Below, piece after piece: positions 6,424 through 28,280 of a stretch of 64,000 nucleotides of DNA (position 1 is the first letter of the stretch; each line of letters starts with the position of its first letter). This stretch comes from Aldrovandia affinis. Its lineage: Eukaryota; Chordata; Actinopteri; Notacanthiformes; Halosauridae. A program made the position numbers and the translations under genes. The notes below the pieces were generated by a model. It ran no database searches and was not told the origin of the DNA. It was given only the letters and a program-made list of their open reading frames with translations. Location of the stretch: NCBI GenBank assembly GCA_029706075.1, contig JAINUG010000108.1, forward strand, positions 2,542,001 through 2,606,000, given 5' to 3'.

Positions 6424-7320
6424 ATGGGAGATTGGGACCTTCTGGGCCGGCTGCTTGACAAGGTGCAGACCCACTCCACGGTGATCGGGAAGGTCTGGCT
6501 GACCGTCCTGTTCGTCTTCAGGATCCTGGTCCTGGGGGCGGCGGCGGAGAAAGTGTGGGGCGACGAGCAGTCCGACTTCGTCTGCAACACGGAGCAGCCC
6601 GGCTGTGAGAACGTGTGCTACGACCACGCCTTCCCCATCTCGCACGTCCGCTTCTGGGTCCTGCAGATCGTCTCCGTCTCCACGCCGACCCTGGTGTACC
6701 TGGGCCACGTCCTGCACGTCGTGCACATGGAGAACAAGGCCCGCGAGATCATGCACAGGCAGGCGGAGGAGGAGCTCAGCGCTGTGATGCTGAGGAACGG
6801 CTACAAGGTCCCGAAGTACTCCGACAGCCGGGGCAAGGTCAACCTGCATGGCCGCCTCCTGCACAGCTACCTGGTGAACCTGCTCTTCAAGGTGCTGCTG
6901 GAAGTGGGCTTCATCCTGGGCCAGTACTACCTGTATGGCTTCACCCTGCACGCGCGCTACGTCTGCAGCCGGTTCCCCTGTCCCCACCGGGTGGACTGCT
7001 TCCTCTCCAGGCCCACGGAGAAGACCGTGTTCATCTGGTTCATGCTGGCGGTCGCCTGCGTCTCCCTATTCCTGAACCTGGTCGAGGTCCTCTATCTGTG
7101 CATCAGAGCTGTCAACAAGCACTTGGACAGGAAGCAGGGTTACGTGGTCACCCCCGTCACTCCGGTCCTGGTGAGGAAAGATTTCAAAAACAAGGACCAG
7201 ATGATTCAGAACTGGGTCAACCTGGAATTGGAGCTCCAAGGAAGGAAGCTGGCAAGTGGGGTCACTAAAAGCCTAGAGTCCGAGGAAATTAGCACGAACA
7301 TGGAAGAGGTCCATATCTGA
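6424..7320 (+). CDS. Connexin gene 1, alpha-type Cx34-like gap-junction protein
   Basis: 298 residues with the full connexin plan: cytoplasmic N-terminus [17 protein letters not shown]1 about 21-41, extracellular loop 1 with Cys54, 61 and 65 (C-X6-C-X3-C), TM2 75-97, a cytoplasmic loop, TM3 about 150-172, extracellular loop 2 with Cys181, 186 and 192 (C-X4-C-X5-C), SRPTEKT, TM4 204-229 and a 69-residue tail. Six such subunits form a hemichannel. The loop-2 residue before RVDC is His188, as in Cx43, which suggests Cx43-type docking. The N-terminal third resembles the fish Cx32 group, while the loops recall Cx43. Length and position near gja1 fit the fish gja11/Cx34.5-type genes, but an exact orthologue is not assigned. 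Whole CDS in one exon, third-position GC-rich, unlike the AT-rich flanks. It is 2.6 kb upstream of gene 2, same strand. Confidence 0.93.
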
Positions 7321-9880: not shown

Positions 9881-10735
9881 ATGGGAGACTGGGGATTTCT
9901 ATCCAAACTACTGGACAAAGTGCAAGCGCACTCCACTGTCATTGGGAAGATATGGATGAGCGTCCTTTTCATCTTCAGGATCCTGGTTCTTGGGGCCGGG
10001 GCGGAGAGCGTGTGGGGGGACGAGCAGTCGGGGTTCATCTGTAACACCCAGCAACCCGGTTGCGAGAACGTGTGCTACGACCGCACGTTCCCCATCTCCC
10101 ACATCCGCTTCTGGGTCATGCAGATCATCTTCGTCTCCACGCCGACCCTGCTGTACTTGGGCCACGCCATGCACATCATCCACAGGGAGAACAAACTGAG
10201 GCAGCATCTGAGCGAGAACGGGAAGAGTCCCAAGTACTCGGACGACAAAGGGAAGATCAAGATCAAGGGGAGCCTGCTGGGCAGCTACCTGACCCAGCTG
10301 TTCTTCAAGATCGTGTTCGAGCTGGCCTTCATCGTGGGCCAGTACTACCTGTACGGCTTCATCATGGTGCCCATGTTCCCCTGCTCCAGGAAGCCGTGCC
10401 CGTTCACCGTGGAGTGCTACATGTCCCGACCCACAGAAAAGACCATCTTCATCATCTTCATGCTGGTGGTGGCCTGCGTGTCCCTGGCCCTAAACGTGGT
10501 GGAGGTGTTCTACTTGATCTGCACACGGGTGAAATGCCGGTCCAACAAAAGGCAAACGAATCGCCAGGTCACCTCGGCAGAAAATCCCGCCAGCCTCAAC
10601 CCAGAGTGGCGGAGCGGCGAGAACGCACAGCAGCAGAATGCGATGAACCTGCAGTTTGAAAGCGGGCAGACCCAGAGCCTGGGGGGAAGCCTGGACGGTG
10701 CCAAGGAGGAGAAAAGATTACTGGCCGAACATTAG
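9881..10735 (+). CDS. Connexin gene 2, Cx32-like alpha connexin
   Basis: 284 residues. [15 protein letters not shown] start, TM1 about 21-41, loop 1 Cys54/61/65 in [12 protein letters not shown]2 75-98, short cytoplasmic loop, TM3 about 134-158, loop 2 Cys168/173/179, SRPTEKT, TM4 188-213 and a 70-residue hydrophilic tail rich in Gln, Asn and Ser. It forms gap junctions or hemichannels at the plasma membrane. The residue that sets docking class in loop 2 is Phe175 (PCPFTVEC) rather than the His or Asn of most connexins, a trait shared with genes 3 and 4. Best placed with the fish Cx32.2/Cx32.3 group (gja12/gja13-like); no mammalian orthologue is obvious. Start chosen at the universal MGDW. 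Coding exon is GC-rich; the 5'UTR exon lies 1.2 kb upstream if the proposed intron is right. Confidence 0.93.
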
Positions 10736-12540
10736 ACGCGACTGCCTAACATATTTTTCTGTATATTTATTTACTGTCAGATTGTGATGTTTACGTGTAT
10801 TTTGTGTCATGGAATATGTGATTGTAATGTCATTTGTAATGCTTTTTGTCAAAGAATGTTTGCAGAAGTCTCATGCCATTTTTTGTTTGGTTGTGGCTTT
10901 CTCCAGGCACCCTTGTGGTCCTTTTCATATTCTTTGCAATAACACATTTTACCCAATTTTGTATGAAGGATATGTTCCTTTGTTAAGTACAATTACAAAC
11001 AGTAAGCCAACATGTTAAACCATTGAAGGTAAATAAGCTGTGGAGCGATGAATCTACAAAATGGTAGAATCTCTGTAGCTGATGAACCTGTATGAATGTG
11101 TAGGATCATGTTGCAACATGTAGTTGTGTGTGATCATTATTTTATATTGAAATGTATTGACTGTTATACCAATAACCACTGTCAATATCCTGAGCTGTCG
11201 ATCTGATTTCACAGATGAAGAAAATCGTTGACTGTTAACTTTTGTAAAATTGTTTCTTTTTGTTATTTTATTTTAATAAAAGCCATTGACACATCAATTT
11301 CAATTTCTCTCTGTTAATGATAACTTATAATAAATATGTAAATAACACATTCTTAAGTTTATGCTTGGAGAGGAACCTTGTCAGCATAATAAATAAATAA
11401 CACATATTTAAAAGCTTTTAGATGAACATAAGATCTGACTATCCCTGATTGCTGCTCAGAATGTATTTGTGATACATCTGATTACCTGGTTAAGACAGGT
11501 TCAAGGTATAAATTAGACAGGAAGTCTTTCTACCACCCACAGTCCCATGGAATGACTAAGCCTTTACAAATAATCACTGTTGTGCACTCCACCTAAACCT
11601 TAAATATTTTGATTAGACCCTATTCAAATGACATGCATTTATGGCTTGGCTACAGCACAATTAATTCATTTTAAACAAAGAGATTGTCCAGTCCTGAACA
11701 ATGCTGAATAAATACTGCAGACCATGGCCGTTTATTTATGTATTTAATTTTCATCTGCCATACTCCGAGCCACACAGGGGATGCTGCAGGAAATCTAGAG
11801 GCAATTGCAGAGGCATCTCTCACTGGTGAATACAGCAATAACCTGAGGAATATTGGCTAACTTCAGCCCAGTCTGCCTGAGTCTGCATGAAGCTTCTATG
11901 AACTGTTGGTTCTAATTGGCTGCTGAAATAGCCTAGATTACGATCCCTAGCCTTAATTAAGATAGCCTAGGTTAGATCCCTAAAGTTTAGGCTAGCACAA
12001 GTCTAAGCTTTAGGGATCAGCATGTACTTGGGTTCACAAATTTACTGGCTTGGCTAATTGGGAGCCCATATGTATGTATGTATGTATGTATTTATTATGC
12101 ATCAAACATGAAGCTTTCATGTAAGCAATATATTCAGTTCAGATAACTATATATTCAGTTATATCGGAACTTTAATATTATAAGTGCGACAAACAAATAA
12201 TTACGAAAACACTACAGTTTCTAGAAAACACCATAATCTAAGTCATAATTAACTAAAACTATTTCAGTGTAGATACATACCGAGATTCGCTCTTGTTCAT
12301 ATCAATAAAAACCACGGACAACATAAACTACAAAATAAAAAAAGGAATGACTGATTATGTGGGAGAAAGCTTTATTTTTCAAACATTTTAACTTTAGTTG
12401 TCACTGCAGGGTGCGAGCTTGGCACTCCACCAATATCATCAATCATTAATTCAGTGTGCAGTCATACTTGACCCTCCCAAATTTAAGTTCCTTCCAGATC
12501 TATAATTTATAGATGTCACAAACAACGTGACAGTCTGTTG
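10736..12540. other. 3'UTR of connexin gene 2 and intergenic
   Basis: AATAAA at 11275-11280 gives a 3'UTR of about 0.55 kb. Further on there is a (TATG)n tract near 12069 and a 16-bp hairpin at 11975-12018. No gene is seen. Confidence 0.45.
11975..12018. repeat. Short perfect hairpin
   Basis: GATCCCTAAAGTTTAG (11975-11990) and CTAAGCTTTAGGGATC (12003-12018) pair over 16 bp with one G-T position, around a 12-nt loop. Partial copies of GATCCCTA occur just upstream (11942). Function unknown; it could be the core of a small inverted-repeat element. Confidence 0.6.
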
Positions 12541-12640
12541 TACAGTGGAATGATGCAATTCTCAAAGGATAAATCTTAAGGTAAAGGAAAGTCTTGATCA
12601 TTAGCACTTACCAGAGGGGACGAGGTGTGGTGCACAGAGG
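12540..12640 (+). promoter_or_regulatory. Proposed promoter/exon 1 of connexin gene 3
   Basis: Donor AGAGG|GTAAGG (GT at 12641). Upstream, GTACAGTGGAATGATGCAATT (12540-12560) matches the block GTACAGAGGAATTATGCAATT upstream of gene 4 in 19 of 21 positions. The core (ATGATGCAAT) is C/EBP-like. The shared block supports a homologous control region; the transcription start is not visible. Confidence 0.45.
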
Positions 12641-13965
12641 GTAAGGAAATCGTTTTTTTATATTCCACATTCTTTATTTAACTGTTAAACTGTCTCAGTA
12701 AAGCATTATTTGTTTTTATTTTATTTTATTTTGTATTATTATTTCAAATTTAAATCGTTTTTGCAATTATATTTGACAACAATCCAGAGGTTAATACAGC
12801 TGTTGCTACAACTATTACTACTATGACTAATTATACACACATACATACATACATATTGAATGGGAATGGGATCTAACTGTCAATTAATTCTTATTATTCA
12901 TAATAATAATAATTGGTAGGTCATCTGAGAACCAGGTTCTGCTAAACTATTATTGACGAGTGTGCATTGTCAAACATTCAGAATATTGTAAAGCATTTTT
13001 GTTAATGTAAGTGACCACTATACTCCTGAATATATGAATTTATTATTAACGGCAGAGTGCTGAGCGATTACATTGAACCTGAGTATTTATCTGTCTCGTC
13101 ACAGATACAATAGGTTCACATATATATCACCAAAAATACAATTATGACCAAAGAAATGCTTTTAGAACATAACACAATTTGTTTAAATGGAGTGCGCCAT
13201 TATGTACTGTCACAGCAGTTTGTGCCCTTTACAACAAACAAGTTTATCATCAAAGCTAATAATTAATTTGGAAATGAGATAGAGGTGACCTGCTCTGACT
13301 TATTGATAACATAGCATATGCCCCCCAGACCAGGTGAACCAGATATTTATGGTGATTCTGAAAATAAAATCTAAATAATATGATGTGTATATTTACATAA
13401 AAACATATATTTATTTATTTGCTTTGCTTTGCTTTTCATGGTAAGTGAGGAAAAAAGAAAACAAATTAATATTAATTTCAAGCAAACTCTCACATTTTTC
13501 CTGTAATATCCAATCTATTCTTTCAATTGTATCTCTAATCTATTCATTCCATTGATTTCGTAAGGGTTTATTGAAACATATTTTCCTGGGGAAAATAAAA
13601 AAATAAAAGTATAAAAAATAGAGATTGATAATAGTCTAGCTAATACATTTTTATTAGCGCACACTGTTTATACATATTGGTTTAGATTTACAATTCACAT
13701 CACTTTTGTCCATGTCCATGGCTCTTCTCCATTGCTTAAACTACATTATTCACAGGAAAGCTGTCAAAAGATATGTTTGACTATTTTTTCCCTTGTACAT
13801 TTGTATACTTCATCTACAGTAGCTTTGAGTGATTTCATGATTAGACAGACTTATGATCCAAAACACATTATTTATTTCTTACTCATGCTATTTCACAATT
13901 CGAGAAAAGTTCCTCATGAAAACTATACTAACTATTCATCTTTAATCATTTTTCTCCCACTTTAG
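12641..13965 (+). other. Proposed 5'UTR intron of connexin gene 3
   Basis: Very AT-rich. Acceptor TTTTTCTCCCACTTTAG ends at 13965. No similarity to the intron of gene 4 although the coding exons are nearly identical. Confidence 0.45.
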
Positions 13966-13985
13966 CCCCATCAGTTTAGTGAACA

Positions 13986-14789
13986 ATGGGAGACTGGGGA
14001 TTTCTTGCGACACTGCTGGACAAAGTTCAAACCCAGTCCACAGTCATCGGGAAGGTCTGGCTGAGCGTCCTTTTCATCTTCAGGATCCTGGTTCTCTCTG
14101 CCGGAGCGGAAAAAGTATGGGGGGACGAGCAGTCGAGTTTCATCTGCAACACAAAACAACCCGGTTGCAAGAATGTGTGCTATGACCACGCGTTCCCCAT
14201 CTCCCATATCCGTTTCTGGGTCATGCAGATCATATTCATCTCCACGCCGACCCTCATGTACCTGGGGCACGTCATGCTCGTGGTCCACAAGGAGAACAAA
14301 ATGAGGCACCGTTTGCAAAACCAACAGAATCAGACGGGGAAGGTGCCCAAATACAGCGACGAGAGCGGGAAAGTCCAAATTAAGGGAAATTTGATGGGTA
14401 GTTATTTGGTGAACGTGGTTTTTAAGATCTTGTTGGAGACGGCGTTCATTGTGGCGCAGTATTATCTTTATGGGTTCACGCTGGAGCCCATGTTTGAGTG
14501 CTCCAGAAATCCCTGTCCATTCACTGTGGAGTGCTACATGTCACGGCCCACAGAGAAGACCATCTTCATCATCTTCATGCTGGTGGTGGCCTGTGTGTCT
14601 CTGCTGTTAAACGTAGTGGAGATAATCCACTTGATTTGCACCAGGCTCAAGTGTGGATCTGGCAGACGCCATAAGACTCAGGCTATACCAATGAACAGTG
14701 GTGGCTTTCTGCACAATGGGGGGACAAATTCACTACATGGCAAACTCAGCTCTGAGGCTGAACAGAATGCTAACCAGAGCACAGCATAG
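13986..14789 (+). CDS. Connexin gene 3, Cx32/Cx30-like alpha connexin
   Basis: 267 residues. TM1 about 21-41, loop 1 Cys54/61/65, TM2 75-98, TM3 about 138-162, loop 2 Cys172/177/183, SRPTEKT, TM4 192-217 and a 48-residue tail. Two loop features are unusual: [10 protein letters not shown] has Lys62 where alpha connexins have Glu (Lys is typical of beta connexins such as Cx26), and loop 2 has Phe179 (PCPFTVEC). From about codon 40 to 210 it is almost identical to gene 4 (five amino-acid changes), but TM1 (34 bp, 14062-14095) is identical to gene 2 instead, and Ser38 is private. The C-terminus differs completely from gene 4. Same fish Cx32.x/Cx28.x (gja12/13-like) group as gene 2. Third positions are less GC-rich than genes 1, 2 and 5 in the second half. 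Confidence 0.93.
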
Positions 14790-16890
14790 AATGAAAAACA
14801 TGCCTCAGAAGGAAACCCTTCAGTGTTCTGTATGGAGTAAAGTGAAAATATAAAAGTACCAGAAAATCTGATTGTAAATGCATGCAAACACCCTGATTAC
14901 ACACACTGGGCACATTTGCAAAGACCTTGATGGAGTTCACTTTCATTGTGAACACGGCCCTGCCCATGATCTGCCCAATAGAACAGACAGGGATGGGCAA
15001 CAACTGAAATGTTTTTGGTACAAAATGCAAAATATCTAACAAAATGTGTCTTTAAAGTACAATCAAAATGGTGGAGGCGAACATTGCTTTGCAGGTGGCA
15101 CAGTGGTATAAACCATACCAAAAAAAAGGGGAGCAACCCGTATTACATATGAAATACATACATGCAAATATGCATTTATTCAAATACATGTATTTGAAAT
15201 ACTGTCCGTCACCGAGAATAGATCGTCATAATCTTCATGCATACAGTACAATGACACATATTTCAGAGGCATGTTGTCATTTTGTACAAAAGCATTTTAA
15301 ATCTGCATAAATTGTAAACGTACATTGGTTACGTTAAATCGTATCTTCTTTTCATGCATGCATAGTACCTGTGAGTTTTGTTTTGTGCTATTGCAAATAT
15401 TGTATGAAAATATTGTTTCAGTGAAACGTATATATATGTAAAATCTGAACTGCATAAATCTATATAGCAATTCAATAAATAATATAAACAACAAAACAAG
15501 TAAAAGCCATGAGGCAACATAAACATGGATGAGTACAAGAAGTTCATCCATTCCTTTTGCATGATTCCAATCTCTTAATCCTGTCATCTTTCTTCCAGTG
15601 TTTATTTTGTGGGCTGTTGTTTTATTTTGTTGTAGTATACTGCATTGTGAAAAATGTACGTTTTCTGTCCGTATTTGTTTGTTTTTAATATGGTATTTAA
15701 TGATAAAAATGAATGAACATGAGTGTTTTTTTAATCAACAATTCAGTTCTCTGGAGCTTGTTCATTAGACATTGGTTAGGAGAGACAAGAACAAAGGGAC
15801 TTTTTGGAACAGGAAACACAGAAATGTCCTTCCTTTTTCATGATGTGTAGGCTATATTATATATTTCAACACATATTTGAAATGGTGTCAAGTTTTGCTT
15901 GGGGAATGATACCCCATCAGAATTATATCTGTAAAAAATCTACTAAAAATCAAGTAAGCCCTGTGGGGGGGTCTATCATAAGCATGGAAGTATCTGTATA
16001 GTTAATATGTACAAAAGTGTGAACATTATGGCAGACATAAATTAAGATGATAATACAAAAAGTAAAGCACTTTAGAAAGGGCACAATACCAGAGTTTTGT
16101 ATTAGAGTGTAATCAGTTTCTTCACTGAGCACTGCACAAGAGGAACTTTACCGCCTCAAGAGGGAATGTGCCACCGTGAGACCTTTGCAGTCAAAGTATG
16201 TCCAAACATACTAAGTGGATTCCAAAGTTACAAACTAAAGCAAGACAAAATAAGTGTTGAATCAGACCAGACCTGTTAGGGGTCTAAACTCTAAACCGCA
16301 ATCCCTCATGCCAAAGACAGCATCATTAACATACCACTAAAAGGGTTTGAAGCCCTTAAGAATGCACCTATCAACCACATCCATTTTCTCTGATCCTTGT
16401 TATGTCACTGTTGCCTGCACTTTTATGTAGAAGCAGCCATACCTGATACAGTGCATTTTATTTATTAGAATGTTTGGAAGCTCAAAGGCCAAAACAAGCA
16501 GTGGGTATGAAAGACACCATCAACGTACAGCATGACCCCAATCGGGAGTGCATTCAATAAAATAATAAAGTGGCATTAATTTGGGGAAAATCCCACATTT
16601 TAACAATAGAACCCAGGATCCCAGTCATTTCAGTTCGGTGAAACTCAGTTGAACCCCCATGAGCTACTTTAAAGGGAACATCTTAGGGAATACACAACAC
16701 CCTGTATTTGTATAACTGAGGTTCCCTCTGAGAGAAAGCCATCAGTCTTGTGATGGGTAGTTTTGTTGTTCGGAAGTTTTAAATTTGAGCTCGTCAAGTC
16801 TATCAATCATTGATCCACAATCCAGTGATAATCTGCTATCTCTGACTGGCTGGATTTGTCATTTGCAGATGTCATGAGAAAGTTGAGTTT
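14790..16890. other. 3'UTR of connexin gene 3 and intergenic
   Basis: A candidate AATAAA at 15474-15479 would give a 0.7-kb 3'UTR. No gene or recognised repeat up to the proposed control region of gene 4. Confidence 0.4.
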
Positions 16891-16893
16891 GCC

Positions 16894-17021
16894 TGTACAG
16901 AGGAATTATGCAATTTAGCGAAAACATACTGCTAACAGAAATCATGATCACTGTCACTTGACCATTTGGCTCAAAAGGAAGTTGCTGTTGTACGTTAAAG
17001 GAAAGGAGTTCATTTCACGAG
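16894..17021 (+). promoter_or_regulatory. Proposed promoter/exon 1 of connexin gene 4
   Basis: Donor CACGAG|GTAAGA (GT at 17022). GTACAGAGGAATTATGCAATT (16895-16915) matches the block before gene 3; ATTATGCAAT is C/EBP-like and sits about 108 bp before the donor, similar to genes 2 and 3. Confidence 0.45.
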
Positions 17022-18050
17022 GTAAGAAAGCTGCTTCCTGTCTTCCACGGTCTTGTAAATTAATACTCTTTTATTAACTGAGTTGTGCTTGCGTTACTTA
17101 TATTTTTATAAGTGACTTGTTTTCTTATCTACGCTATACTACATTGTGGCAGAATAAAACCTTGTGTCATTTTTAAGTGTTTTACCTTGATGAATTTATT
17201 CTGCCTGCTGTCATAAACATGATAAGACCGATCTAGAAGTCCACGAAAATGATCTCTTAAAATCCAGATAAGAGTAAGCAGATGAATCAATGTTCCTTGG
17301 GTGGATGCATACACATTGGGGGGTGATATGACTTAATTTTCCTTATATTTGGCACTTATACCCTTAAATATTTTACAACTTATTGGCTTTCAATCATTAC
17401 TGGGACAGAAATAATTTGAATAGAGACTAAGTGAACAGAAATCCCAAATATGTATACCTGACTTCAAGCAATATTCTGTCATGTGGAGAGGTGCTCTTAC
17501 ATAAGAAGAATCTCAGAGCCAGATATGCACCTAGGTGACCTCATATGATAGCACAGATTCTCGGCTATCAGGCTTGTACATCTGGTTATGATTATATTGC
17601 TCTCGAAAAATGATTACAATGCAGCATAATGGGCCACGGGAACAAACAAGCTCCAGGCCAGTATAAAGAGTTAATGAAGATGCAAATAGCCTGTGCTCAA
17701 GGTCCTACTCTACGTGTATGATTGCGTAAAATAATGTCTATATTTGTGTCTATACAATGTCTAGACTATACACAAAAAAATGATCAAAGATGCTTGACCT
17801 TTTTCTGCAACGTTATTTATGTATGAAATTGTCTATCTCAGCATTTACAAGTTAACATTTTTTTTAAATTTTTGTTACACAATTTATGTGTAGGTCTATA
17901 TCATTATGATGCATACACTGGTAAAAGGGTGCATGTCTTTTATTTGGAATACCTAAATACCATTGCTCTTTCCTTCAGCCTCATAAAATATGTTAAAACA
18001 AATTCCAGGGTTGACTGGATTACGTGTCTATTCAATTTCTCTTCCTTTAG
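17022..18050 (+). other. Proposed 5'UTR intron of connexin gene 4
   Basis: Acceptor CAATTTCTCTTCCTTTAG ends at 18050, 24 bp before the ATG. AT-rich, no repeat recognised, unrelated to the gene 3 intron. Confidence 0.45.
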
Positions 18051-18074
18051 AAAAACCTACAAAATCAGTGAATA

Positions 18075-18815
18075 ATGGGAGACTGGGGATTTCTTGCGAC
18101 ACTGCTGGACAAAGTTCAAACCCACTCCACAGTCATCGGGAAGGTCTGGCTGACCGTCCTGTTCGTCTTCAGACTGCTGGTCCTGGGTGCCGGAGCGGAA
18201 AAAGTATGGGGGGACGAGCAGTCGAGTTTCATCTGCAACACAAAACAACCCGGTTGCAAGAATGTGTGCTATGACCACGCGTTCCCCATCTCCCATATCC
18301 GTTTCTGGGTCATGCAGATCATATTCATCTCCACGCCGACACTCATGTACCTGGGGCACGTCATGCTCGTGGTCCACAAGGAGAACAAACTGAGGCGCCG
18401 TTTGCAAAACCAACAGAATCAGACGGGGAAGGTACCCAAATACAGCGACGAGAGCGGGAAAGTCCAAATTAAGGGAAATTTGATGGGTAGTTATTTGGTG
18501 AACGTGTTTTTTAAGATCTTGTTGGAGACGGCTTTCATTGTGGCGCAGTATTATCTTTATGGGTTCACGCTGGAGCCCATGTTTGAGTGCTCCAGAGATC
18601 CCTGTCCATTCACTGTGGAGTGCTACATGTCACGGCCCACAGAGAAGACCATCTTCATCATCTTCATGCTGGTGGTGGCCTGTGTGTCTCTGCTGTTAAA
18701 CATAGTGGAGATATTTCACTTGATTTGTTCCAGGTCAAGAAGAAAAAAAATGATTTCAGAGCACAAGCATTTGAATGGAGGCAATTCACTGCCGATGCGA
18801 TGTACACTGAATTGA
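18075..18815 (+). CDS. Connexin gene 4, Cx28-like alpha connexin, near-twin of gene 3
   Basis: 246 residues with all connexin landmarks: TM1 about 21-41, loop 1 Cys54/61/65 with Lys62, TM2 75-98, TM3 about 138-162, loop 2 Cys172/177/183 with Phe179, SRPTEKT, TM4 192-217. The tail is only about 28 residues ([12 protein letters not shown]...) and unrelated to that of gene 3; similarity drops at about 18730. Around TM1 (18134-18171, 38 bp) it is identical to gene 1, including diagnostic bases that differ in gene 3, and Leu34 is private. This mosaic suggests gene conversion. The short basic tail removes most tail-based regulation sites. Belongs with fish Cx28.x/Cx32.x genes. Coding region in one exon, 4.1 kb downstream of gene 3 and 7.3 kb upstream of gja1. 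Confidence 0.93.
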
Positions 18816-19990: not shown

Positions 19991-22126
19991 GAGACCTTTC
20001 CTGTGTTTCTGCATCGAGTTATCACAGTCAGCTTTAATCTGTAACATTTGTAAACTTGTTATCTCACCAGCGTTAATAAAAGGATTCATAAAGATGGATG
20101 TCACAATGTGACTCAATGCCTCCAGGATGTGAATGTGCTCCAAGAATGAAGAAGGCAAACAAAGCAAGCACACATGCCATTGTTCCTTGAGAGCATAAAG
20201 ACAACATAGAGCCTGATTTAATCTTTCAATAGGTACAACAATTCTATTAAATATCTGGCAGAATGTAAGTGATGCAGGATGTATGATTCAAGGCAAAGCT
20301 CCCCTAACTTGCTGGTCATCTTTCAAACCAGCAAATCAAAATGAACCATTTACAATGACCTGCCCTTCATATCAAAAGGATATGGGCAGTGGCTGCTACT
20401 GGTTACTAAAACTATACACCAGCCCTGTTTAAAGCACAGAGCACAGAGACCAAGTAAATGGTGAGAGGTCTAATAACTGAATCTTTGGATCAGTTTAAAG
20501 ACCAAGCAGGGGGACCAATAATTATGTTTTGTAAAGGCTAATACAAGGTGTAAAGACACATTAATCATTCTTGATAAGGGCTTCTACAGCACAAATTCCC
20601 CTGTCAAACGTGTTTAGACTACATGTACGCACCAAAGCTCTCAGCAGATATAATTTCCTTTCTCATATGAAAACCCCCAGCCACAGAAAATAAAAGACAA
20701 GAGTGACTTAGGCAGCACATTTAGATTGATATAACTTATTTGAGTAATAACTCAAGTATATTTCTGAACAGAGCTTAACCATTTGAATGTTAAAAGGCAC
20801 ACTTCCCATCCTCATTATCAGGAACTTATGTGGATCATGACTTTACGCCCAAGAAGCACGCGAGACTAAGGATGTCTGCAGACTGTACTTTCCTTAGGGA
20901 TCAATTTTCCTTGGGTCCTAAATTCGCTAAACCCAGCTGGAAATGTATGTGATCATAAGAGTTTGGCGCCATCTATGGGAGTTTGTACAAAATGAGAGCG
21001 CGCAACTACGCCTGCGCACACATGCACGAACACATAGCCTACGTCTCCAATCGGATCTTGCTTGTACTCAATTTCTGTACATCAGTTAATATTACGTGTG
21101 CAGGGACATTTCTGATTGCCTTTGAAATACTATTTTGTGCTCGTGCTGTCTCAATGTATGAAATAAGCAAGAAAACATAAAACATCATATAGTCACAATT
21201 CTGTATAGTATAATGTCAAAGTGGATTGCATTTATTTGATATAGCCTACAGACTAGGTTACTGTACCACCAACAATAAATGGAAAGCGATATGAACCGTT
21301 TGCTTGGCTAAACCCCCAGTAACAGGACCTCCATGAAACGTTGGTCCTTTATGATAAAAAGGGAGCTTTATGATGTCACCTTTGAGTTAAAGATGTTTTC
21401 AATGTGAGCACACAGAACGAGAACAAACAGGATACACCAGATGGCGTAAGAAGCACGCAGATTATTAATTTTCCGAACGGGCTCAAACCAAATGCTGTTT
21501 CCTAGCCTATTTTCAGATTAGTAAAATTACTAACACTGACCACTATACACGGTACGATACATAGGCAGTTATTAAATTCAAAATATATTTTAAAACTATA
21601 AAAGATCATCAATGGGTTAAAATGGTTCCCATATAACCTAATTTGCTCAAATATAAATATTAAACACATTTTGACCATGCGAATTGCAAATGCAAGGCCT
21701 ATTAATTTGTATCATTATGCATATACAAATTATTAATATAAAAGCAGATAACTTCATACATTCCGTTCACTATGGGTGGAATAGACAAATACTTCAATAC
21801 TTTTAAAACCACACATTAAGGCCACGGATTTTATGGGAAACGTATTTTAAAACAATAATCACTACTGATTGAAATTATTATTATTTTTACAATATGGCAA
21901 GGAAAAACGTTGAGAGCTGTAACACTATTGAAAATAAACATCTCAACGGTCCTTCGATGGAGGTTTTCCTGTAAATATAAATATAAATAAATATGTTCGC
22001 GTTTCTGTAGCCTACACATCACTTCTCAAAAAGTTCTGAAGAAACGAAGAATGCAAGGAGGTCCGTCTGACGTAGGAATCAGGTGACAAACTTTTCCTCT
22101 TTTTTCTCTCTCTCATTTTCCTCCAG
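19991..22126. other. Upstream region of gja1
   Basis: No coding gene. The last 700 bp before 22126 are likely gja1 proximal control DNA. A TATA-like ATATAAAAG lies near 21737 and a CRE-like TGACGTAG near 22069. Neither is proven. Confidence 0.4.
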
Positions 22127-22282
22127 CCCCTATGAAGACTCTTATAAGCAAGGAAAGTTTGACAAGTCTGCCTCAGTTTCACCGTGGTCCCAAACTTGGA
22201 TTTCCAGAAAACTGACTGATATCAAGAGGTTTACGGAGAAAGTCCCTCAGGGCTCTCTTCTTGCTTCTCAGTGACTTTCCAG
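22127..22282 (+). promoter_or_regulatory. gja1: Proposed non-coding 5' exon of gja1
   Basis: A good donor CCAG|GTGAGG (GT at 22283) ends the exon. Its left border could be the acceptor-like CTCTCTCTCATTTTCCTCCAG ending at 22126, making it internal, or it could extend further left as exon 1. GJA1 in vertebrates is known to have a non-coding first exon and a coding second exon separated by a multi-kb intron; the 3.1-kb gap here fits. Confidence 0.45.
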
Positions 22283-25200
22283 GTGAGGTTTAAAACTAAA
22301 ACGAATAATAATTTTCACAAACAGTAACTTACAGCCTATTCATAGGTTTCTGTTATGCGGCGCAATAGCCTACTTTTGGCTATAGGCAGGCAAAGACGTG
22401 AGCAGCTGAGAAATTAAGACTGGGATTGTAAACCTATGCACTCTGTCCAGTTCCTTGTTTGTATTAACTGTGTATTATAAAATATTAAACATTTATGGTG
22501 GGTGGTATCACGTACCACAACATGTATTTAAATTGTTAAGTCGGCGGTTGAATATTTTCATCCGTATTTTCGTTGGAAGACAGTTATAATTGACTCAAAA
22601 CTTTTAACACAGCTATGTGGAATATGCGGTAGTCCTGTGAAATTAACATTGACGGTACAGTAAAAGCTAACTGAGAAAAATAAATCCCCACCATCCGCAG
22701 TCGAACATTTGTCGGCTTGAAATAATAGGTTGATTCAATTAACCGTCCTTTTTGTTTGATCAAACTGCAGTATTTGTACTCGGTCATTCTCAAACTCAAG
22801 GGAAAACCAGGAAAACTAGACATGAATTTTAATACATTGTGTATGGTGCGCATCTGGAGGGCACACTTCAAGTATTTAGCTGCTCTGTTAGCAATAACTT
22901 TGAAGGAATCTAGAGGATGAAAGTAAACAATAAGCAATATGGATTTCAATCTTCCCTCGAGTTCTGATTTTAATTCGTTATTAATTATTGTCTTTTTGGC
23001 GATGACAGGGAAATTGACTGGAAATTGTTAACGACTTGTGCATGTTTACTTCTATAAATGCTGTGACCAGTTGTTTGTGGACTGTTAATACTTATATAGT
23101 CACGGATGCCAAATGCAAGATAGTAAAGGTTTTGTAAATGAAATGAATGATCGTATGAAGACGGACTGGATATATCTGAGACAACATACAAAGCAGCTGC
23201 AGACAAAGAAACCACATTCTGTATAGTCATCTACTAGATCCTGTCTGTTTTTCTTCTCAGGGCTAATCTGTTTAGATATAACCTCAATCAACTATCACAC
23301 CTTCCATCACGCAGCTAAGGTTTTGCTATTGTGCCTAGTTTCTGCTAATATAGTACATGGAATTAGATACCCCTTGGTAATCAGGGGTTTGCATAACCAA
23401 TCAAGACAATATTACTATAGCTGGTTGAATATGATGGTTGAAGCTGTAGTTTATTTTATTAGAGATTTTCACGATTATTTTCTTGTAGTTTGCTCCATTG
23501 TTACACATGGCTGCCTGTACACATCAAACACATCAACAGTGCCTGTAATCCAGTTCTTGGTCTGCAGACTGGGAGAGTATATATTTTCTTTCAAAATCAA
23601 AGAAAGGTTACCTATGTAAAGGCCATCATCTGTGATGGAAGTGGATTTTTTAAACTGTTTTAACTAGTAAGTAACTCGTATCCCAATGAGATGTTTACAT
23701 GAGGTGTGCTGTATGCTTTGTGTACATTGCTCAGTGTGTGAGTGGGCCCACCGTGTGCTGAGGGCCTCCTACCATGCCAATAGCTAATTTGCCACAATTT
23801 TCATTGTTTTCTCTTGTTTTTATAAGTATGTCAGCATTTGACAACTATGCAAATGGCCGGGTTTAATACAGTCAATTAAATGCCTTTATATGCTTCACAG
23901 CTCAGAAACCAAGATGATCTATGTACCTCTCTGAGAAGTGACTCCTTCTCCTGGAGCTGTAAAGTGTGTCATAAAAGGTGCCGTCTGCCTGTCTGATGGC
24001 GCAAGCTTCAGCACACTATCGCATTGCGTGAGTGAGAGCCACATTCCTACTCCACCGTGCTGGAACTCGGCCGATCCCTGGCGCTCGCTTCGGCTTAGCG
24101 CCAGGCCCAGTGTACAGGGTATCTCACTGCCACCATGGGGTGCACTGGGCCCACTGGCCTCGGCACAGATCTTTATGCTTTGGCCCTGCAATCTCGCAAC
24201 TCCAGAAACATTACTTGCACTTGAGTGTACCTGTGCTAACATTTAAAGGGGCCACACTCTGAATAAGAGCTCAGCACATGGACCCTGTGATTCTGGGCCA
24301 ATTGGCCTAAATACACATGATTTGCTTTGATGTAAATTAAAAACGTTGACATATATACAAGTGGATAGGTTTTCGTGTGAAGCTACTACGCTGATTTAAT
24401 TTAAGGAAAATTCACAAAACAAACTGGGTTGTTCAGCATATGGACCATGCATTTTTGGTTGATTGGCCAGTGCTGTAACATTAGGTAAGTTTAAGTTCAG
24501 GCACCATTCACTGAGTGAGGACACAATTAACATTTTGCATGATGTAAGGACAAAGGAAGAGGTTAAACAGTTCAGTGTGTAAGGAGTCCTAACCCCATAG
24601 TTTTTTCTTTATAGGAAAATGCACATTTGTTTCACATTTAAAAAAATTCAGTTCTCATAATGCAGGGGATATCTTCACTTTTAAAAACATTTATGGATTA
24701 ACAAGACATATTTGCTAAAACAGCTTGATTAGAAACAAGACCTGAGATGCATTTTGTAGTCAACATTTGAGAAAGAAACATTTGTGCATGCATTTTTTGC
24801 TTGCAAAAAACATGTTTTCTCTTTAACGTCATTACCTTTTTGGAAGTACAAGTCCCCTGACACTGGCGTCTAGAAGGTCTGTCACAGTTACCAGGTTGCC
24901 TTCACAACACATAACATTTCCATAAAGTAGACAAAACATTATTCCTGCAGTTTGTTTTTCACTGTAACATAACATAACATAAATTCACGTGTTGTGCTCA
25001 AGTCACATTTTTCATGCTAAAGAACTATGGATAAAAATCAATCATATGGCTAAATCAAAGGATTTACACCAATTCCTGAGAAAGATGTACTTGTTTAGTT
25101 TCAAATGGTTGTTTCAGTACCTGCATGCTTTTATTTGGTATATAGGTCTGAGAAGCTTTGAAGATGGTCACATAAAACATTTCGCTTGTAAGTGGGAATG

Positions 25201-25374: not shown

Positions 25375-26532
25375 ATGGGTGACTGGAGCGCTTTAGGAAG
25401 ACTCCTCGACAAGGTCCAGGCCTACTCCACCGCTGGAGGAAAGGTCTGGCTCTCTGTCCTGTTCATCTTCCGGATCCTGGTCCTGGGAACAGCTGTGGAG
25501 TCCGCCTGGGGGGACGAGCAGTCGGCCTTTCAGTGCAACACTAAGCAGCCCGGCTGCGAGAACGTCTGCTATGACAAGTCCTTCCCCATCTCCCACGTCC
25601 GCTTCTGGGTCCTGCAGATCATCTTCGTCTCCACGCCGACGCTCCTCTACCTCGCACATGTGTTCTACCTGATGCGCAAGGAGCAGAAGCTGAACAGGAA
25701 GCAGGAGGAGCTGAAGGCGGTGCAGAACGACGGTGGTGATGTGGACATACCGCTGAAGAAGATTGAGCTGAAAAAGTTCAAGCACGGGCTGGAGGAGCAC
25801 GGGAAGGTCAAAATGAAGGGTGCCCTCTTGCGAACCTACATTGTGAGTATTTTCTTCAAGTCCATCTTCGAGGTGGGATTCCTGGTGATACAGTGGTACA
25901 TATACGGGTTCACGCTGGCCGCCGTCTACACCTGCGAGAGGGATCCTTGCCCGCACAGGGTCGACTGCTTCCTCTCCCGTCCCACAGAGAAGACGGTCTT
26001 CATCATCTTCATGTTGGTGGTGTCTCTGGTGTCCCTGCTGCTGAATGTTATCGAGTTGTTCTACGTCCTCTTTAAGAGAATCAAGGACCGCGTGAAAGGG
26101 CAACAAAACCACTACCAGCCCACCAGCGGCACCCTTAATCCCACTCCCAAGGACCTGTCTCCGACCAAGTACGCCTACTACAATGGCTGCTCCTCCCCCA
26201 CCGCCCCCTTGTCCCCCTTGTCCCCCATGTCACCCCCTGGGTACAAGCTGGCCACAGGGGAGAGGACCAACTCCTGTCGCAATTACAACAAACAAGCCAA
26301 CGAGCAGAACTGGGCCAACTACAGCACCGAGCAGAACCGACTGGGCCAGAACGGCAGCACCATCTCCAACTCCCATGCGCAGGCCTTTGATTACCCCGAC
26401 GACACCCAAGAGCACAAGAAACTGAGCGCAGGCCACGAGCTGCAGCCCCTGGCCCTGGTGGACCCCCGGCCTTCCAGTCGGGCGAGCAGTCGGGTCAGCA
26501 GCCGGGCGAGGCCGGATGACCTTGATGTCTAG
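25375..26532 (+). CDS. gja1: Connexin 43 (gap junction protein alpha 1)
   Basis: 385 residues (human 382). [20 protein letters not shown] start, TM1 about 21-41, loop 1 Cys54/61/65, TM2 75-98, a long Lys-rich cytoplasmic loop including [21 protein letters not shown]3 154-178, loop 2 Cys187/192/198 with His194, TM4 207-231 and a 150-residue tail. Tail motifs kept: Tyr247 and Tyr266 (Src sites), SPP-GY (PPxY-type sorting motif, 285-290), the NYNKQA..NWANYS stretch, the Ser-Ser-Arg repeats (Ser367/368, 371/372, 375/376; PKC and Akt sites) and a C-terminal DLDV that should bind the second PDZ domain of ZO-1 like mammalian DLEI. Met213, the internal start of the trafficking isoform GJA1-20k, is present. 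One extra Ser-Pro (280, 283, 286) expands the MAPK-site cluster. It forms gap junctions in heart, bone, fin and glia. The acceptor lies 16 bp before the ATG. Confidence 0.98.
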
Positions 26533-26889: not shown

Positions 26890-28280
26890 TTTAGAAATAT
26901 TGCACTTCGATTTTGACCAATGTGTCTTTATCCCATGCCTGGAAAATGGTTTGAAGAAACACTTGGCCTTTTATTCCCCCTTACGTGACCATCATCTTTT
27001 TCGATGTCAGTTCCATCTTGCAAAACAGGGTTATGAATAGGTTCCTTGTGCTCAGTATCATGAGTTAATATTTATTTATTAGTATAAGTATGCAGGACAT
27101 CCACCACTAGACAAAGATTGACTACTACCCAAGGTCATATCCATATTAGTAATATATAAAGTCACTAGACCCAACACCATATTTATTGATAATAATCCAA
27201 ATTTCAGCAATACTTTTTCACTGCAATTAAGAGGTTGCTTTTATTAATGATAGTGGACTGTCATTTCCTGATAAACTTTGAATTTATGTGGTGTCAGTTG
27301 TATTATTTTATGTATGTTGTCTTGGGGTTTTGTGGGGAAGTGGAAGTGTTCAGAGTGTGGATAAAAGCTGCTGTAAGACAAATACACAGCTTGATATTTT
27401 TTTCTTTTTCTTTTTTTGTGCTAAAATGTGTCCCTGAACATCTTTGAAAGAAAGGCTTTATTTTGTCTCTTTAAAAAAAAACCATGTATGTTATTTTGTT
27501 TTCTTTCCTTTTTGGATGGGAGAGGCGGGCAGTAGAAAGAAGTTCTCTGTTTTACATTTGGCGTGAATGATTTTTTTTTTGTTGAAACAATGTAATCATT
27601 GCTGCTTGAGAGATAGTTTTTAGTACTGTAAATCAAGCTAACTGTGTCACAAATGTGAGTTTTTTAGAAGACTGCTTTATAGAGCTGGACTAATATTTAG
27701 TCAAATATATTAAAAGGTATACGCCAATGTAGCTCCACAACTACCAAACACTAGTAGATGGAATTTCAATTGGACTTTTTTGTTTTGTTTTGACATTGCA
27801 TCATAGTATTTTGGTACTCGAACGCGGAGGTTCATGGATTTTTCAGCTACAATGGTGTTTGCACTGAGATTTTGGCTAGGGTGTAATATGATGCAAAAAA
27901 GTGGCAAGTGTTTCCTAGTATGCATGTTACTAATTTATTTTACAATACACCAGGCAGAAAATCACTACATTCAAACAGTGCTTCCCTTTGACATCTGATC
28001 TCACTGTGACCTTGAAAGATCAACCAAAGACAAGGTCTTCCATTCACAGAACAAACAAACTGGGATGTATATTTGCTGGATGAAGTGCAGTGTGGTCATG
28101 TTTTACCATGGAAATCCACTGTTGTACAGTGTGTAAGTGCATGATAGCAACAAAATGTCATTAATCATATCTGTGAAAAAAGCTATTTTAACCAATAAAG
28201 ATTTTTTTTCTTTCTTATGTTTGCTTTTTATTTGTCTCAGGGAATGCACTGAGGTGTCTTCAGCTTTATCCACATTCTCA

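Follow-up and report, generated by a model that had tools for sequence, protein, structure and literature searches.

Tandem connexin genes g3 and g4 of Aldrovandia affinis: old duplicates whose coding exon was probably homogenized by interlocus gene conversion

The connexin array and its counterpart on a second contig

The window analyzed, a 64,000-bp stretch of the Aldrovandia affinis genome (GenBank assembly GCA_029706075.1, contig JAINUG010000108.1, positions 2,542,001 to 2,606,000 of the forward strand), contained a tandem array of four alpha connexin genes, g1 to g4, followed by cx43 (gja1). The coding exons of two adjoining members, g3 (13986..14789, + strand; 267 amino acids [aa], 30.1 kDa) and g4 (18075..18815, +; 246 aa, 28.3 kDa), were nearly identical over most of their length, and the origin of this likeness is the subject of this report. 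The other members were g1 (6424..7320, +; 298 aa, 34.3 kDa), g2 (9881..10735, +; 284 aa, 32.3 kDa), and, at the end of the array, cx43a (25375..26532, +). Open reading frames (ORFs) of all five genes matched the Pfam Connexin domain far beyond its cutoff (325 bits for g1), and cx43a also matched Connexin43. The Cx6Cx3C and Cx4Cx5C motifs of the alpha group were present in the first and second extracellular loops (E1 and E2), respectively. All 34 solved sequences matched by g3 were gap-junction proteins, with Cx46 the best. The g3 protein aligned with Cx43 without gaps up to about residue 109, and the limits of loops and transmembrane segments (TM1 to TM4) used below are presumed from the topology of Cx43.

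All comparisons were made within this single 1.22-Gb genome and single assembly, in which the array lies on contig C91. The connexin survey covered 40 fetched stretches, leaving out matches on contigs C1114, C1923, C1868, and C102, on C1336, and at C91:369658, and yielded 46 ORFs, some of them partial and with one gene of contig C1035 present twice. In a tree of 16 of the 46 ORFs, hand-picked as alpha-like, g1 to g4 formed one group with a gene from contig C1795, and this group adjoined the cx43 group (support, 95/93 and 95/90). The C1795 gene, here called gO (L020, C1795:468503-469312), was intact and encoded a protein 70% identical to that of g3 along its entire length. It lay near a second cx43 (cx43b), which had 81% DNA likeness to cx43a over 1,193 columns, and a decayed connexin relic (C1795:465200-466300) was found 2 to 3 kb before gO. 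Two noncoding blocks of the window (22102-22305 and 27791-28108) were 71 to 72% alike between the two cx43 neighborhoods; on this evidence, the neighborhoods would fit an old block duplication, taken here as the teleost genome duplication. No counterpart of g4 was detected beside cx43b by tblastn, which gave only matches with E values of >0.3 between gO and cx43b. Upstream of the array, an ORF at 539-1096 was annotated as a short-chain dehydrogenase (Pfam adh_short).

Likeness of g3 and g4 in and around the coding exon

The match within the coding exon had two parts. Codons 1 to 26 (g3, 13986..14063; g4, 18075..18152; both +) were identical at 77 of 78 bases, with 1 difference, and codons 39 to 213 (g3, 14100..14624; g4, 18189..18713; both +) were identical at 517 of 525 bases, with differences at codons 89, 106, 108, 120, 145, 153, 175, and 210. 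The differences were scattered along the channel body, and the reading frame was kept. An earlier reading of the window, made from its letters alone (the sequence-only reading), had counted 8 differences in about 520 bp between codons 40 and 210, which is the count recovered here. It had placed the start of the likeness near codon 40; this holds for the longer segment but leaves out codons 1 to 26. From codon 214, the likeness collapsed. The end of TM4 with the cytoplasmic tail of g3 (14625..14789, +) and the end of TM4 with the short cytoplasmic tail of g4 (18714..18815, +) appear unconverted past about codon 220, and the tails agreed at 44 of 99 aligned bases and were saturated.

Between the two near-identical segments lay a diverged patch in TM1, comprising codons 27 to 38 (g3, 14064..14099; g4, 18153..18188; both +). 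Here, 26 of 36 bases were the same in g3 and g4, and the step was sharp (10 of 36 bases differing versus 9 of 603 elsewhere; Fisher's exact test, P = 6e-9). The patch of g3 had 10 of 11 codons in common with g2. Exact runs of 34 nucleotides (nt) between g3 and g2 (coding bases 77 to 110) and of 38 nt between g4 and g1 (coding bases 61 to 98; permutation, 2 of 2,000, uncorrected for ten pairs) overlapped it. The patch was probably either skipped or overwritten later, most simply by a short tract from g2 to g3; copying from g1 to g4, or an interval left between two separate g3/g4 tracts, may also account for it.

Synonymous divergence (dS) by window, a comparison proposed in the sequence-only reading, showed the same step. 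In codons 39 to 213, dS between g3 and g4 was 0.028 (3 of 109 synonymous sites; Poisson range, 0.006 to 0.080), against 1.28 between g3 and gO and 0.845 between cx43a and cx43b in the same codons; it was about 0.64 between g3 and g4 in the TM1 patch and saturated in the tail. Codon identity was then scored at places where two proteins share an amino acid, excluding Met and Trp, against a null of codon usage, which was chosen because bias in third-position GC content (GC3) can matter for g1 and g2 (GC3 in the body, 0.95 and 0.88). The same codon was used by g3 and g4 at 61 of 62 such places in codons 39 to 105 and at 80 of 81 in codons 126 to 213, where codon usage predicted only 29.3 and 37.7 (0 of 1,000 draws reached the observed number in either segment); in the patch, the same codon was used at 4 of 8 places, with 2.7 expected (P = 0.24). 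GC3 bias was ruled out as the cause of the g3-g4 likeness, GC3 being only 0.72 and 0.71 in these genes. Since the synonymous sites matched as closely as the others, constraint on the protein is not by itself enough to account for the likeness. Five of the 8 changes in codons 39 to 213 were nonsynonymous, including N175D in E2, and 3 were synonymous. With so few changes (n = 8), this proportion was compatible with neutrality (P[≤5] = 0.22) and fitted poorly with a long-term dN/dS (ratio of nonsynonymous to synonymous divergence) of 0.10 (P[≥5] = 0.04).

Flanks were compared by Smith-Waterman (SW) score against dinucleotide shuffles. The introns of g3 and g4 scored at background (SW, 18; reached by 12 of 100 shuffles), as did the 3′ flanks (SW, 14; reached by 76 of 100 shuffles over 1 kb and by 57 of 60 over about 2 kb). 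Upstream, a block at 12438-12613 (g3) and 16802-16964 (g4) was 62.9% alike over 178 columns (E = 3e-8; SW, 32; shuffle maximum, 16; 0 of 200 shuffles). It lay about 1.1 to 1.5 kb 5′ of the start codons and ended 28 (g3) and 58 (g4) bases before a GTAAG donor, and both genes also had a TTTAG acceptor 20 to 24 nt before the ATG. From its homology and these splice signals, the block would represent promoter plus noncoding exon 1 (12438..12640 [+] in g3, with the donor at 12641; 16802..17021 [+] in g4, with the donor at 17022), followed in exon 2 by a putative 5′ untranslated region of 20 nt in g3 (13966..13985, +) and 24 nt in g4 (18051..18074, +). Because the shared block is only 63% alike, g3 and g4 are taken as complete genes that were duplicated anciently. 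The sequence-only reading had described introns, flanks, and tails as dissimilar; this was correct for the intron, the 3′ flank, and the saturated tail but not for the 5′ flank. It had also named clearly aligning flanks as a disproof of conversion; these were looked for and not seen, and what does align is old. A retrocopy origin was rejected because g3 and g4 each seem to carry an upstream intron of their own along with a homologous exon 1 block.

The g3 block also matched DNA upstream of gO (67.3% over 104 columns; 0 of 200 shuffles), and no match to that DNA was found for the g4 block (score reached by 124 of 200 shuffles). Near cx43b, the g4 block had no match (32 of 60 shuffles). The score of the g3 block about 3.7 kb before cx43b (SW, 19; shuffle maximum, 18; 0 of 60) was taken as noise and was aligned mainly outside the g3/g4 block. 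No match to the g3/g4 block was found in the DNA upstream of g1 or g2; an upstream score of 24 between g1 and g3 (shuffle maximum, 23; 0 of 60) was located 87 bases before the g3 ATG, away from the block.

As a control for flanks, 11 connexin pairs of this genome were compared; they were hand-picked from a pair listing, with the C1934/C2111 pair (>92%) left out. A flank match with an E value of ≤1e-4 on at least one side was found in 8 of the 11, the exceptions being g3/g4 and two pairs whose coding parts were only 88% and 85% alike. In seven pairs, likeness of the coding part was 93% or more, and g3/g4 was the only one of these lacking a flank match (6 of 7 had one), with none at an E value of ≤1e-4 within 3 kb on either side. 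The nearest comparable case, a tandem pair on contig C1912 (96.3% in the coding part), was 94% alike upstream and 90 to 96% alike downstream. A recent segmental tandem duplication, which should leave likeness in the flanks close to that of the coding part, was therefore rejected for g3/g4, in agreement with the sequence-only reading, and accepted for the C1912 pair.

Other pairs showed further patterns. The C1912 genes (L024 and L025; C1912:3300290 and 3309260) are a recent tandem duplication and are connexin beta-like by their start. A gene on contig C1035 (L049, C1035:183740), with an interrupted frame, was 96% like L029 (C868:819598) over 463 coding bases, with flank pieces 73 to 86% alike; this may be another case of conversion or of assembly error, so that g3/g4 is perhaps not the sole odd pair. 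A cut-down cx43 copy of 282 aa (L032, C2222:1955322) matched cx43a at 96% across 827 coding bases; upstream, 571 bases were 97.5% alike, and downstream there was no match at an E value of ≤1e-4. This copy is a recent partial duplication.

Segment trees and possible older patchwork in the array

Phylogenies were made per segment from 7 sequences, and the tested clades were named after the codon counts were known. In codons 126 to 213, g3 and g4 grouped with gO (98/95), and a g2+g3+g4 clade was rejected (approximately unbiased test, p-AU = 0.034). In codons 1 to 105, g3 and g4 grouped with g2 (92/92), and the alternative fell short of rejection. A phylogeny per segment had been proposed in the sequence-only reading. 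An excess of same codons between g2 and g3 was found in codons 1 to 26, 27 to 38, and 39 to 105 (P = 0.001 or less for each) and not in codons 126 to 213 (P = 0.12). Between g1 and g2, such an excess was seen in codons 39 to 105 only, of the four segments (P = 0.001), and between g2 and gO, it was seen in none of the four.

That g3 sides with g2 over its 5′ half but with gO over its 3′ half would fit conversion, and these sequence comparisons lend moderate support to an older g2-g3 mosaicism. If such conversion took place, the split of g2 and g3 predates the block duplication. More tentatively, and with rather less than even confidence, the whole array might be viewed as evolving in concert by repeated, patchy conversion among g1 to g4, such that the tandem copies look too young and too lineage-specific; the split of a g2-type and a g3-type gene would then have preceded the teleost genome duplication, with gO and the relic beside cx43b as survivors.

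Origin of the likeness and comparison with known systems

Very probably, g3 and g4 are old tandem duplicates whose coding exon was later homogenized by interlocus gene conversion that ended where homology ends. An old tandem duplication would have produced two complete, two-exon alpha connexin genes, whose introns, 3′ flanks, and cytoplasmic tails then diverged to background. Much later, the stretch between the start codon and roughly the end of TM4 (codons 1 to 213/220) would have been homogenized in one or a few events by repair-templated, nonreciprocal copying between neighbors 4 kb apart, in a tract that ends, at the 5′ border of the coding exon and past TM4, where alignable homology runs out. 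The TM1 patch, of about 36 bp, would have been left out or overwritten later, and the 5 nonsynonymous and 3 synonymous changes in codons 39 to 213 would have followed, on both copies. The paralogues are otherwise old and have locally low dS, and the 63% likeness of the upstream block and the codon-usage background of the TM1 patch both place the duplication before the tract. The sequence-only reading had likewise proposed an old duplication with conversion in the coding exon, and the synonymous contrast, the upstream block, the two-exon anatomy, and the duplication controls support this. If neutral substitution in fish runs at roughly 1e-9 to 5e-9 per site and year, a dS of 0.028 corresponds to very roughly 3 to 14 million years since homogenization.

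Several results weigh against this account or against the older patchwork. Conversion is read here from one genome rather than seen as an event, and one genome-contig scan for relatives in other species gave 45 pattern matches, none of which was confirmed. The later changes fall on both copies and do not single out a donor gene. A GENECONV-style permutation test, as suggested in the sequence-only reading, gave low probabilities for g3-g4 in the full alignment (1 of 2,000 for exact fragments, 0 of 2,000 with mismatches allowed, and 4 of 2,000 at third positions). The mismatch version, however, also flagged the unlinked pairs g4-gO (0 of 2,000), g3-gO (1 of 2,000), and g2-gO (18 of 2,000), because the tail and the body differ in evolutionary rate, and in the first 220 alignment columns g3-g4 was not significant (796 of 2,000 for exact fragments; 93 of 2,000 at third positions with mismatches), because the tract then fills the alignment; the test is weak evidence and is not leaned on. 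A small score between the tail stretches (SW, 16; shuffle maximum, 15) lay in codons 214 to 222, at the fading end of the tract, and was not counted as independent evidence for an old tail common to both genes. For the patch, the g2-g3 run reached only 62 of 2,000 permutations before correction for ten pairs. For the segment trees, the alternative in codons 1 to 105 had a p-AU of 0.068 (codons 39 to 105 alone, support of 82/88 and p-AU of 0.084), and the whole-protein tree of 16 genes placed gO outside g2+g3+g4 (87/75). Unlinked pairs also had codon excesses, namely, g3-gO in codons 1 to 26 (P = 0.013) and 126 to 213 (P = 0.003), g1-gO in codons 39 to 105 (P = 0.028), and cx43a-cx43b in three of four segments (P = 0.009 to 0.023), so that an excess alone is no proof of conversion.

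Among the rival explanations, the one that survives best, though it is unlikely, is that selection favors equal pore and docking parts for hemichannel compatibility and that conversion was retained for that reason. Up to codon 220, 14 codons had states shared by g3 and g4 and absent from g1, g2, gO, and both cx43 genes (at codon 62 of E1, for example, K replaces E), and g3, g4, g2, and gO had in common an E2 motif with F, so that compatible docking may matter. Against this, no protection was visible in the TM1 patch or in the changes after conversion. The sequence-only reading had supposed that pore and docking parts are kept equal, which the comparison did not support: the most diverged stretch of the body is in TM1, N175D lies in E2, and 5 of the 8 later changes are nonsynonymous. 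Confinement of the tract would need no selection, because conversion runs only where sequences are still alike and the introns, 3′ flanks, and tails are beyond alignment; conversion limited by homology would thus account for the borders.

Two side observations concern these motifs. Lysine at codon 62 (GCKNVC) was also found in the C2222 cx43 copy, in both C1912 genes, and at C1778:1165072 and C335:9230688. The E2 motif PCPF-x-VEC was present in g2, g3, g4, and the gene at C1795:468503, that is, in 4 of 39 readable frames (46 examined), the other readable frames having other residues at the F position, mostly N or H. This position in E2 sets docking groups, and connexins with PCPF-x-VEC may, by their sequence, form a docking class of their own.

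A recent partial duplication, in which the coding exon was copied as a flankless DNA fragment and acquired a new promoter and tail, is very unlikely. Partial copies of connexin exons do occur in this genome, as at C2222:1955322. Yet g4 has an upstream block in the matching place, only 63% like that of g3, and the same two-exon layout, and therefore an old sister gene was already at the site of g4; in addition, the TM1 patch inside the match is at synonymous background, and a blind fragment copy would hardly be expected to have the very same limits as the coding exon. Still less probable is an artefact of assembly or polishing that made the two exons look alike: near-identical paralogues are prone to mispolishing and only one assembly was used, but a single contig of at least 2.6 Mb carries both g3 and g4, their flanks are distinct, their differences are spread along the body in frame, and polishing affects only copies that are already near identical. 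That strong purifying selection alone keeps the body alike can be dismissed almost entirely, unless the nucleotides themselves are constrained, for although connexin bodies are conserved (dN/dS of 0.10 for g3-gO), the synonymous sites show the same degree of likeness, dS between g3 and gO, which is under similar constraint, is 1.28, and 5 of 8 differences are nonsynonymous.

Interlocus conversion itself is ordinary and well known, and g3/g4 is a clear case of it. It is also a clean one, with a built-in yardstick in the unlinked paralogue beside the second cx43. Trees of tandem connexins that rest on the conserved body can give wrong dates for duplications, a caution that concerns how gja12 and gja13 are named and dated, and equal channel bodies in adjoining connexins need not signal selection for equal function. 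In the literature searched, with subscription journals largely outside it, no report of conversion in this array was found. Literature searches that paired connexins with gene conversion or concerted evolution gave, by title and abstract, one paper on connexins (PMC6726660), and the main texts of PMC7066803 and PMC7914757 had 0 occurrences of the word "conversion".

Teleost gja11, gja12, and gja13 lie beside gja1 and include zebrafish Cx34.5, Cx28.9/28.1, and Cx32.3/32.2 (PMC7066803, PMC7914757, PMC9073686). The alpha connexins of the window are likewise in tandem beside gja1, with masses of 28 to 34 kDa, and by mass and position g1 to g4 look like this group. By size and place, g1 would be gja11/Cx34.5-like, and by size, g2 would be gja13/Cx32-like; these names are leads. 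No ohnologues of gja11, gja12, or gja13 were tabulated in seven teleosts (PMC7066803), and the origin of gja12 and gja13 was placed after the teleost genome duplication (PMC7914757). Unlike that picture, A. affinis has an intact paralogue, gO, and a relic beside the second cx43, and a split of g2 and g3 before the block duplication, which is moderately supported, would contradict the inference of PMC7914757.

Interlocus conversion between tandem paralogues is reported for the long-wave opsins of fish (PMC11291592, PMC6389941) and is suspected for amniote Cx26/Cx30 (PMC6726660). Like those cases, g3 and g4 are tandem copies with synonymous homogenization in the coding part, sharp borders, a patchwork, and diverged flanks. 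Unlike them, the g3/g4 tract covers almost all of the conserved portion of one coding exon, and the pair has in gO an unlinked and apparently unconverted yardstick.

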